Position numbers and translations under genes: made by a program. This document shows, piece after piece, positions 158-5,254 of a DNA stretch of 53,851 bases (positions are counted from its first letter, which is position 1; each line of letters opens with the position of its first letter). This DNA comes from Microcaldota archaeon (GTDB lineage Archaea; Micrarchaeota; Micrarchaeia; Anstonellales; Bilamarchaeaceae). The notes under the pieces were generated by a model, which did not search any database, was not told where the DNA came from, and saw nothing but the letters and a program-made list of their open reading frames with translations. The DNA lies in assembly GCA_014727975.1 (NCBI GenBank), contig WJMK01000032.1, forward strand, positions 1 through 53,851. Reading direction: 5' to 3'.

Positions 158-1297
158 TTAGCCGAACATCAGGAGGCAGTTTTCTTTTACTGCATCCCCT
201 TCTATGTAATTGCAGTACACCTTGCTGTCTTCAAGCCTTGCAAGCTCCTGGTAGCACTTGTCTTTCCATTCGGGCAGTATGATGCTGTTGCATTCGACCA
301 TTGTGAGTTCTTCTGCGCTGAAGATTAGGGCGGAATAGCAGATCTGGCGCACATACTCTGTATCTATTTCGTTGCATGCTGCAAGGTCATCATGAGCATA
401 GGCAAATTCCTTAAAGCAATCTTCCCTTGAAACCGGGGCGCGCGTATCTATTGCATAGCAGCCATCCTTGTCCCCTGTTTCAAGTGCATAGTCGGTATAG
501 CAATCCCAGCGCTTGAGCACTGCAACAGCCTCGCAAAGGGCAGGCTGCTCATTTTCTATTGCAAAATGCGTAAAGCACTGGTAGGCAATTTCAGTATCAT
601 AAAGGCCATTTATGTCATAGCAGTGGGTTGGGTTGCCGTCCCCAAGCGCATAGATATAGTAGCATTGATATTTGTAGGACTTTTCCTCAAGGTCCTGGCA
701 GTGGTCCTCATGCTCAAGTGAACTAAGGCACCCTTCCCGCTTTGCATACTCCAGCATTTCGCAGGCTCCGGGTTCTTCATATTCAAACGCATAATCAAGG
801 TAGCACTCTTCGTCCTTGCAGTAAGTGTAATTATTGTATTCAAATGCCAGGCACCTTCCCTTCTCTTCTTCATCAAGGACAAATGTGCATGGAGGGGAAA
901 GATATTCGATGCAATCGGCCTTGTCCTCCTGGCTCATCAGGTCACAGATTGAGATGTCCTCAGTTTCATATGCATGGTAGAAAAGGCACCCTCTCTTATT
1001 TTCATATTTTATGAGCTGGAGGCAATTGGAAAGGGAATCATTTGAAAGAGGGAGGATGCATTCGTCTCTTTCGCTTGAGGGAAGCTTGAGGCAGTAGGAA
1101 GTGTCGCGCTCTTCGAGTGCACTTTTCGACAGGCCCTGGCTTTCCTCTTCTTCAGAAGGCTCAACTTCCGCAACCCAGCCGCCAACTGAAATGCTTGGCT
1201 CTTCTTCTGAAGGGATAGGGGTTTCCTCTCCGCCGGGGCATCCGGCAATGAGCAAAAGTGATATCATTGCAGCAGCAAACAACAGGGCCCTGTTCAT
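158..1297 (-). CDS. Secreted lipoprotein with many tandem ~30-aa two-cysteine repeats
   Basis: ATG at 1297 gives MNRALLFAAAMISLLLIAGCPGG (signal peptide plus lipobox-like Cys), then repeated C..(I/L)...RxxC...A spacing to the C-terminus. Confidence 0.8.
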   Translation of the reverse strand: MNRALLFAAAMISLLLIAGCPGGEETPIPSEEEPSISVGGWVAEVEPSEEEESQGLSKSALEERDTSYCLKLPSSERDECILPLSNDSLSNCLQLIKYENKRGCLFYHAYETEDISICDLMSQEDKADCIEYLSPPCTFVLDEEEKGRCLAFEYNNYTYCKDEECYLDYAFEYEEPGACEMLEYAKREGCLSSLEHEDHCQDLEEKSYKYQCYYIYALGDGNPTHCYDINGLYDTEIAYQCFTHFAIENEQPALCEAVAVLKRWDCYTDYALETGDKDGCYAIDTRAPVSREDCFKEFAYAHDDLAACNEIDTEYVRQICYSALIFSAEELTMVECNSIILPEWKDKCYQELARLEDSKVYCNYIEGDAVKENCLLMFG

Positions 1298-1543: not shown

Positions 1544-2071
1544 ATGGAAGTTTACACTACCTTGCAAAAAAGGGAATATTCCTTTTCCGGGCAGAGGGAA
1601 TTTGTGCAGCTGGTTGTGGTTTCGTTTCTTGCATTTGCAATCCCCTTTGTGCTTCCGCACCCGCAAATCCTTACAGGGGTGCTGGTTAATGCGTTGCTTG
1701 TGTTTGCTGCGCTTGGAATGAGGGGGAATAGTGTGCTTCCTGTTGTGCTGCTCCCAAGCGTGGGGGCGGTTGCAAATGGATTGTTGTTTGGACCACTTAC
1801 GATTTTCCTTGTGTACCTGGTCCCGTTTATCTGGATTGGGAACTTCCTGCTTGTGTACGGAATAAAGCATTTCATGGAAATGGGCTTCTGGAAAGCAGGG
1901 GCAATCTCTTCATTCATTAAAGCAGGGGCAATTTTCCTGCCTGCGTACGGGCTCTATGCTGCGGGTGTGATTCCGGAGGCATTGCTGGCTTCGATGGGAG
2001 CGCTGCAGATTGGTACCGCGCTGGGCGGGATTGCAGCAGTGGGCGCCCTGAAAAAAATAGCAGGGAAATGA
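1544..2071 (+). CDS. Polytopic membrane protein (ECF S-component-like or hydrogenase-associated; family uncertain)
   Basis: MEVYTTLQKREYSFSG... with about 5 hydrophobic segments; purine-rich RBS (AGAGGGGGC) before ATG 1544. Confidence 0.7.
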   Translation: MEVYTTLQKREYSFSGQREFVQLVVVSFLAFAIPFVLPHPQILTGVLVNALLVFAALGMRGNSVLPVVLLPSVGAVANGLLFGPLTIFLVYLVPFIWIGNFLLVYGIKHFMEMGFWKAGAISSFIKAGAIFLPAYGLYAAGVIPEALLASMGALQIGTALGGIAAVGALKKIAGK

Positions 2072-2718: not shown

Positions 2719-3834
2719 TTATAATTGCACCTTATGGAAATATAAGAGTTTGCGCGCGTTTTCCGAGCCAGGGCGGCCCAGGAGCTCCCTGTAGAGTTTC
2801 TTTACTGTAGGGTTTTCCTGGGGGACTGTGGCAAAGGTACGCTTGGAATCTGCTGCCTTGCGGAGCCCTGCGGCCCGTGCCTTGAGCTTCTCTTCAGTTA
2901 CCGGGAGGGGCTGGCCAGGTCCGCCAACGCAACCATATGGGCAATTCATTACTTCCACAAAATGTACCCTCTTCCCGTTCTGGATTTCCTTGAAGAGCTT
3001 TTCGAAATTTGCAAATCCGTGCACGGTTGCAACATTGATTGTGTATGGGCCAAGCTTTACAGTGCGCTCCTTGATTACATCATCCTTGCGGAAATACTCC
3101 TCATCCTGCTTTTCCACATCCAGGACATGGGCCATTGTAGTGAGGAGGGCTTCAACCAGGCCCCCTGTAACCCCAAAAACCACTCCGTCCTTGGAGGAGC
3201 CGGGGAGGAGCTCGGAGAACTCGGACTCGGGCGCGGTTTTGAGGTCCAGGCCCTTTTTGCGGGCGAATTGCGCGAGCTCCCTGGTTGTGAGTACATAGTC
3301 CACATATGGGTTTCCGTCCGGGAACCGCTCCATTGTTTCATATTTTTTCAGGGTGCAGGGCATCACGCTTACGGAAACTATATCCTTGCGGGGCTTGCCC
3401 AACTTCTTCTGGAGGTAATGGTTGATGATGCTGCCGGTAATCATGTGGGGTGAAGCGATGGGGGAGATGTGCTTGCAGAGTGATTCATGGGTGCGTGAGC
3501 AGTAAAGCCTCCAGCCAATGCAGCAGGAATTAAATACAGGGAAATAGCCTTCTTCGCCTCGCTCAAGGGCATGGAGGATTTCGTATGCTTCTTCATATAT
3601 GTTGATGTCTGCACCAAGAGGGGTGTCCACAACATGGTCGAACCCGAGTTGCTCCAGGAGCCCTATGGTTTTCCGGGTGAGGTCTTCGCCAGGGGAATAA
3701 TCAAATTCTTCCCCTATTGAAACCCGGACTGCCGGGGCAATCTGCACGGCAACTATTTTTTCCGGGTCTTCGAGCTCCTGCTCCAGGGCTTCAAATAATT
3801 CTTTTTCTTTATTGATATAGATATCATCAGGCAT
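2719..3834 (-). CDS. [FeFe]-hydrogenase catalytic (H-cluster) domain protein, no N-terminal ferredoxin domains
   Basis: VAVQIAPAVRVSIGEEF; L1 NSCCIGW; L2 VMPCTLKKYE; L3 EVMNCPYGCVGGPGQP; 371 aa from ATG 3834. Confidence 0.93.
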   Translation of the reverse strand: MPDDIYINKEKELFEALEQELEDPEKIVAVQIAPAVRVSIGEEFDYSPGEDLTRKTIGLLEQLGFDHVVDTPLGADINIYEEAYEILHALERGEEGYFPVFNSCCIGWRLYCSRTHESLCKHISPIASPHMITGSIINHYLQKKLGKPRKDIVSVSVMPCTLKKYETMERFPDGNPYVDYVLTTRELAQFARKKGLDLKTAPESEFSELLPGSSKDGVVFGVTGGLVEALLTTMAHVLDVEKQDEEYFRKDDVIKERTVKLGPYTINVATVHGFANFEKLFKEIQNGKRVHFVEVMNCPYGCVGGPGQPLPVTEEKLKARAAGLRKAADSKRTFATVPQENPTVKKLYRELLGRPGSENARKLLYFHKVQL

Positions 3835-4000
3835 GAGTGGAATAAGGAAAATAGAATTATAAGGGTGGCGGGAAAAACCGGCGGGGGAGCTGAAGAAACA
3901 TTTAAAAAAGTGTCTATTAATAACCATTATGCTTACTTTTCGTGCGACTGCACGGATAAGTTATGTGGATATAGAATAAGTTATATGTAGGTGAGTATGA

Positions 4001-5254
4001 ATGGCAGCAAAAGAACACATGAACATAGTGTTTATTGGCCACGTAGATGCAGGTAAATCAACCTGTGTGGGCAGGCTCCTCTATGAGACAGGAGCACTTT
4101 CTGAGCAGACCCTCAGGAAGTACAAGGAAGAAGCCGAGAAGCTCGGCAAAACTACATTTGAGTTTGCATTTGAGATGGACTCTCTCAAGGAAGAGCGTGA
4201 GAGGGGAGTTACCATTGATGTTGCACACAAGAAGTTCACTACTGACAAGTATGAATACACTATCATCGATGCACCTGGACACAGGGACTTCGTAAAGAAC
4301 ATGATTACTGGTGCAAGCCAGGCAGATGCGGCAGCACTTGTAGTTTCTGCAAAGGACGGAGTGCAGCCCCAGACAAAAGAGCATGGTTTCCTTGCAAAGG
4401 TGCTTGGAATCAGCCAGTTTGTTGTGCTCATCAACAAGATGGATGCAATCAACTATGATGAGAACAGGTTCAACGAAGTGAAGGGAGACCTTGAGAAGCT
4501 CCTTAAGGGGATGGGCTATGATGTAAGCAAGCTCACCTTTATCCCAACCTCCGGGTACAAGGGAGACAACATTTCAAAGAACTCCGAGAATACTCCATAC
4601 TACAAGGGCCCGACACTGCTCCAGATTCTGGATAGCTTTGAAGTGCCCCCAAAGCCTGGGGACAAACCACTCAGGCTCCCGATTCAGGACGTGTTCACAA
4701 TTACCGGGCACGGAACTGTGCCGGTTGGGCGTGTGGAAACAGGAAACATGAAGGTAAACGAGAAGGTTGTGTTCATGCCTTCCGGGGCATCCGGGGATGT
4801 AAAGAAAATCGAGATGCACCACCAGGAAATGAACGAGGCAAAGTGCGGAGACAACGTTGGGTTCAACGTGAAGGGCGTAGACAAGAAGGACATCAAGAGG
4901 GGAGACGTTCTTGGTGCATCTTCAAACCCGCCTACAGTTGCAGACGAGTTCACTGCACAGGTAGTTGTGCTGAACCACCCGACTGCAATTTCTGTGGGTT
5001 ACACCCCGGTATTGCACATCCACACTGCACAGTTTGCAGCTAAAATTACTGAGATTGTGGAGAAGAAGGGCCAGGAAGGAAAGGCGGACTTCATCAAGAC
5101 CGGTGATGTGGCAGTGGTTAAGTTCAAGCCGCTCAAGCCCATCGTGATTGAGAAATATGCAGAATTCCCTCCACTCGGAAGGTTCGCAATCAGGGACATG
5201 GGGCAGACAGTTGCGGCTGGTGTCGTGCTGGACGTAGTCCCGAAGAAGCAGTAG
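4001..5254 (+). CDS. tuf: Translation elongation factor EF-1 alpha
   Basis: [22 protein letters not shown]-motifs; archaeal EF-1A throughout. Confidence 0.98.

Follow-up and report, generated by a model that had tools for sequence, protein, structure and literature searches.

How might an [FeFe]-hydrogenase acquire its H-cluster in an archaeon with no recognisable maturation enzymes, given that HydE, HydF and HydG are, to our knowledge, considered indispensable for making an H-cluster in nature? The question is raised by a gene on the 53,851-nucleotide stretch of DNA that we analysed (hereafter the window), which belongs to a metagenome-assembled genome (MAG) of 1.07 Mb in 55 contigs, 88% complete. 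The original prediction had placed a minimal [FeFe]-hydrogenase at 2719-3834 and left its strand unsaid. These coordinates are correct and the strand is minus, the plus strand being interrupted by stops across the same positions. The gene and its parts are as follows.

3834..2719, minus strand: hydA, 371 aa, minimal stand-alone [FeFe]-hydrogenase
3511..3534, minus strand: L1 motif FNSCCIGW, residues 101-108
3337..3366, minus strand: L2 motif VMPCTLKKYE, residues 157-166, with ligand C160 and with M158, K163 and E166
2908..2958, minus strand: L3 motif VEVMNCPYGCVGGPGQP, residues 293-309, with ligands C298 and C302
2743..2892, minus strand: fused Fe_hyd_SSU (small subunit) domain, residues 315-364

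The start giving 371 residues agrees with an N-terminus that aligns genus-wide as Mxx(D/E)IYxN, while in-frame upstream extensions do not align. In Pfam searches, HydA matches PF02906 over its full length (E=1.3e-69) and ends in a fused PF02256 small-subunit domain (E=7.2e-10). Since it scores 264.9 bits against TIGR02512, the model for group A [FeFe]-hydrogenases with a curated cut-off of 406 bits, we call it a minimal H-domain protein and not a standard group A member. All the H-cluster ligands that had been claimed are present (C105, C160, C298 and C302), and the three motifs read as originally given. No Cys cluster lies upstream of the H-domain, again as predicted, and because five of the seven Cys in the protein are used at the H-cluster or proton relay (the four ligands and C104, leaving two others), HydA has no accessory FeS domain. 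We numbered residues after a CpI reference sequence whose key residues land on the published numbers. C104 and C105 correspond to CpI C299 (proton relay) and C300 (ligand), and E85, S124, E82 and C104 to the proton path formed in CpI by E282, S319, E279 and C299. In this numbering, HydA keeps the Cys ligands, C299, E279, E282, S319, M353, K358, E361 and M497, while R286 is replaced by Ala, T297 by Asn and P301 by Ile. The last two are the departures in L1 that had been noticed before; they are clade characters and not errors, and occur both in the genus and in the sister genera nearest to it. Within the genus, the dN/dS of hydA is ~0.05-0.11, with synonymous change far exceeding non-synonymous change, which shows that the ORF is not a chance one and encodes a real, maintained H-domain protein.

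A profile search detected PF02906 in 38 of 148 relatives, including all six members of the genus. In the tree, the short forms without N-terminal Cys clusters, 22 in number, fall on one side of a branch with SH-aLRT support of 97, and most carry NSCC[IV]GW and GGPGQ. The best relative of HydA in the PDB is Thermoanaerobacter kivui HydA1 (8a6t, E=5.7e-70); with it, HydA2 of the hydrogen-dependent CO2 reductase and HydA1 of A. woodii are the nearest solved structures, followed by CpI. An AlphaFold check had been proposed along with the original prediction, and the model obtained (pLDDT 89, pTM 0.90) superimposes on CpI with a TM of ~0.89 over the query and on the nearest solved structures with a TM of ~0.9 over the query, at ~2 Å. 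This 22-member clade, the retained proton path, the CpI-like predicted fold and the strong purifying selection bear out the filing of HydA as a minimal archaeal [FeFe]-hydrogenase. A non-hydrogenase protein of the Narf/IOP1/Nar1 type was rejected on the [2Fe]-specific K163, M158 and C104, which are kept, in an analysis whose tree held no Narf sequence. As a separate observation, E279, E282 and S319 (CpI numbering) are intact in the genus of the window but differ in sister genera within the minimal clade, as in G017 (E279A) and G015 (E282Q and S319G). The loci compared (L021, L024, L029, L030 and L068 versus L001, L023, L025, L026, L028 and L061) offer a natural series for studies of proton transfer.

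How does this enzyme compare with known systems? Algal HydA1 (Chlamydomonas, M1 type) likewise consists of the H-domain only and takes electrons straight from ferredoxin; algae encode HydEF and HydG, whereas the genome studied here encodes neither. T. kivui HydA1 and CpI share with our HydA the H-domain fold, the ligands and most of the proton path. In contrast to it, they carry N-terminal FeS domains and read TSCCP instead of NSCCI in L1, and T. kivui HydA1 also has HydB and HydC, which are missing from our genome together with HydE, HydF and HydG. No HydB (PF01512) was found in the genome, which rules out a divergent HydABC partner, nor was a [NiFe]-hydrogenase large subunit (PF00374). Small stand-alone archaeal H-domains with a complete ligand set were reportedly described by Greening et al. 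in Cell in 2024, and HydA shares these two features. On its own, a minimal archaeal HydA is thus a known kind; in PMC11803613 and PMC11406978, archaeal [FeFe]-hydrogenases, minimal ones included, are credited to Greening et al. 2024. We found no published account of the missing maturases or of the membrane protein described below, the text of Greening et al. 2024 lying outside this search. Group A3 enzymes have also been published from Woesearchaeota (PMC8421398). These too are DPANN H-domains of group A type, and the long, HydB-accompanied forms among our relatives fit them; they are trimeric HydABC, whereas our HydA is monomeric. That paper mentions neither maturation nor HydE, HydF or HydG.

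The original prediction had found HydE/F/G and a redox partner absent from the window, and none is recognisable among the genes called there. It had also proposed to search the rest of the genome for the maturases, and profile searches found them absent genome-wide: HydG (TIGR03955) and HydE (TIGR03956) have no match, and HydF (TIGR03918) returns only weak GTPase matches far under the cut-off, like every control genome. Nor did the genome yield a radical SAM protein of the HydG/ThiH type at E<=0.001, which makes a divergent HydG unlikely. Maturases that are present and were simply missed, through 88% completeness or binning, would be a very improbable explanation. The MAG is in 55 contigs, and a single missing contig could take all of HydEFG with it; set against that, 36 of the 38 HydA-bearing relatives have no full HydEFG, some of them 90-97% complete, and genome incompleteness cannot explain the 35 absences among relatives. 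Complete HydEFG sets occur in only two of the 38 (G027 and G044), the only relatives with HydF over the cut-off, and a HydE/HydG fragment occurs in a third (G136). Mis-binning may have affected the G027 contig that carries HydEFG, whose tetranucleotide correlation with the HydA contig of G027 is 0.886, as compared with ~0.96 for other pairs of contigs from one genome or one genus. Mutual exclusion of HydG and HydA was considered and is not significant (p=0.56).

The missing maturases raise another reading, namely that HydA holds no [2Fe] unit, has lost its activity towards H2 and persists as a redox or sensory protein with a [4Fe-4S] cluster. The unusual L1 (N and I), the Ala in place of R286 and the changes to the proton path in several sister genera would fit. 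We nevertheless consider it quite unlikely, because the equivalents of C299, K358, M353, E279, E282 and S319, which serve the [2Fe] unit and proton transfer, are kept in the genus under strong constraint; in addition, the maturase-less group also holds long HydABC-type enzymes with canonical motifs.

Features flanking hydA are the following.

1544..2071, plus strand: A2, integral membrane protein of about 175-180 aa, ECF-S-component-like, tail-to-tail with hydA
3835..4000: 166-bp intergenic stretch separating the divergent hydA and EF-1A-like genes
4001-5254, plus strand: EF-1A-like gene, a neighbour of hydA common to the genus

The EF-1A-like gene and other translation and transcription genes, as read from their sequences, indicate that hydA lies on an archaeal chromosome and not on a contaminating contig. 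EF-1A was rejected as a functional partner, its adjacency to HydA being confined to the genus and G015. A Cys-rich lipoprotein-like protein (158-1267, minus strand; cluster 6) adjoins A2/HydA genus-wide. The most informative neighbour is A2, ~650 bp from hydA and overlooked in the original prediction. It is under purifying selection, as hydA is, and in a gene-order comparison it is the one recurrent neighbour near HydA in most loci, with varying orientation. An A2 profile matched 37 of the 148 genomes, 35 of which carry HydA; A2 is thus found in 35/38 genomes with HydA versus 2/110 without (Fisher 5e-28, uncorrected for phylogeny). Mere hitch-hiking was rejected: in several relatives A2 is elsewhere in the genome, on another contig or far from HydA (G013, G015, G021, G024, G029, G049, G050 and G145), so the pairing is not only linkage. 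Moreover, in all five genera in which HydA is variable (g3, g17, g18, g24 and g48), A2 varies alongside, G106 excepted. Three genomes have HydA but no A2, namely G027 and G044, which carry HydEFG, and G106 (Fisher 0.004 within HydA-bearing genomes), where HydA is near the end of a short contig. A survey of 303 genomes of the phylum found A2 in 38, the single newcomer (G344) having HydA and A2 in tandem.

Outside the phylum, we examined 50 HydA-bearing genomes, 34 of which have HydG over the cut-off. True A2 is found in two, a Coprothermobacteraceae bacterium (G148) and a Woesearchaeote (G150), neither of which has HydG or HydF over the cut-off. In the bacterium, A2 is the first gene of an A2-HydC-HydB-HydA operon (L249), where subunits are named by similarity to the Nuo-type order as read from sequence. 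Of 14 further bacterial HydA-bearing genomes without HydG over the cut-off, 13 also have no HydF over the cut-off and no true A2; either HydA occurs without maturases more widely than A2 does, or the MAGs in question have gaps. On a side note, eight bacterial genomes with a canonical HydA and neither HydG nor HydF over the cut-off (G152, G153, G154, G170, G173, G176, G190 and G196, at loci L072, L074, L076, L100, L107, L111, L133 and L143), one of which is the isolate Parabacteroides sp. ZJ-118, represent either assembly gaps or more maturase-less hydrogenases.

What might A2 be? The protein in the window has no match in Pfam or NCBIfam, PF12822 (ECF_trnsprt) included, and an hmmsearch against the PDB gave no match. 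Weaker homologues occur mostly in Clostridia (E 1e-17 to 1e-5), and of six distant homologues from bacteria, four score over the curated PF12822 cut-off. Profile-profile comparison relates A2 to these distant homologues with 99% probability, and the two sets share the conserved residues N49, P94, I96, N100, K126 and Q155. The AlphaFold model of A2 (four rows) is all-helical with a pLDDT of 79; its best PDB matches are RibU, ThiT and ECF S chains, all with E above 0.1, the top one being RibU 3p5n (prob 0.97, E=0.17, TM 0.48). Remote homology and a predicted fold of moderate similarity point to A2 being an S component of an ECF transporter. It resembles S components such as RibU and ThiT in size, in its predicted helical character in the membrane and in remote homology through its bacterial cousins; it differs from PF12822 members in having no Pfam or NCBIfam match and in being tied to HydA. 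An A2-like homologue directly follows HydA at one bacterial locus (L245), and at another (L241) the cluster reads TM1266-A2like-HydG-HydE-AspA-HydF, with TM1266 identified via TIGR03959. These two loci tie the A2 family to H-cluster biology, also in genomes that make the cofactor. Since distant A2-like bacterial proteins often occur in HydEFG-bearing genomes, the family need not be a substitute for the maturases.

We infer that HydA evolves H2 from ferredoxin, that its cofactor originates outside and that A2 has a role in acquiring it. HydA would act as a monomer made of the H-domain and the fused small-subunit domain. Since it has no accessory FeS clusters, electrons would reach the [4Fe-4S]H cluster directly from a soluble donor, with ferredoxin the probable one, and proton transfer would run through E85, S124, E82 and C104. 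In this cell the [2Fe] half of the H-cluster would not come from the HydE/F/G pathway, and A2, as the conserved partner of HydA, would most likely serve either to take up the [2Fe] unit, or a precursor of it, supplied by a host or by neighbours, or to deliver it to apo-HydA. That HydA is an active, ferredoxin-fed minimal enzyme obtaining [2Fe] without HydEFG, with A2 most likely in acquisition or delivery, is the reading that we tentatively prefer, at somewhat under an even chance. The [2Fe] unit as the natural A2 substrate is a guess, the alternatives being import of a vitamin or of a metal complex, or a role as a tether, and free [2Fe] units are not known to us to occur naturally in the environment. 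A role for A2 in cofactor acquisition is plausible because synthetic [2Fe]adt given to living Escherichia coli or Synechocystis activates apo-HydA without HydEFG (PMC6984386).

In a narrower form, which we regard as unlikely, HydEFG would have been dropped and a ready-made [2Fe] unit or late precursor would be scavenged from other cells via A2, as a membrane protein dedicated to this task, and passed to apo-HydA. This would span these archaea and at least one bacterium. If true, it would be the first case known to us in which H-cluster maturation in nature depends on a transporter.

There is also a substantial, if lesser than even, possibility that HydA is an ordinary minimal hydrogenase matured by an unrecognised internal route of unrelated enzymes, with A2 as a partner of HydA in the membrane, be it an anchor or a link to proton or redox coupling, or as an importer of some ordinary vitamin or metal that H2 metabolism requires, S components normally importing vitamins and metals. 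The intact active site would agree with this, as would the A2 cousins beside HydA or maturation genes in HydEFG-bearing bacteria (L241 and L245); the search at E<=0.001 for a HydG/ThiH-type radical SAM protein in the genome, which found none, and the lack of A2 in both HydEFG-bearing genomes among the HydA-bearing relatives count against it. A hydrogenase clade that is under strong selection and has one conserved membrane protein instead of HydEFG lends itself to a concrete test, whose outcome would be either a second natural cofactor route or cofactor sharing between cells, each of relevance to hydrogen exchange in symbiotic archaea and to simple heterologous hydrogenase production.

Some relatives present the converse situation, orphan HydE-HydG operons without HydF and without HydA, as in the first three entries below; the last two are HydE-HydG pairs of a second type.

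L151, 7186-8445, plus strand: orphan HydE-HydG operon
L153, 8145-9515, plus strand: orphan HydE-HydG operon
L157, 5660-6904, minus strand: orphan HydE-HydG operon
L155, 8892-11341, plus strand: HydE-HydG pair without HypC domain
L156, 6829-9274, plus strand: HydE-HydG pair without HypC domain

Further orphan loci are L152, L154, L158 and L163, and the genomes concerned include G032, G011, G092, G031, G102, G113, G026 and others. At its N-terminus, HydE of the orphan operons has a HypC/HupF domain (MCYAIPG...; PF01455 over the cut-off). No Hyp genes were recognised by motif near the [NiFe] loci, an uninformative negative since control genomes give the same picture. A [NiFe]-hydrogenase large subunit is present in 14 of the 15 HydG-bearing genomes without HydA, and in G026 (L163) the orphan operon is ~3 kb from it. 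These operons may belong to a hybrid route by which [NiFe] or some other Fe(CO)(CN) cofactor matures. The pairs at L155 and L156 (G064 and G060), also without HydF and HydA, are likewise in [NiFe]-bearing genomes.
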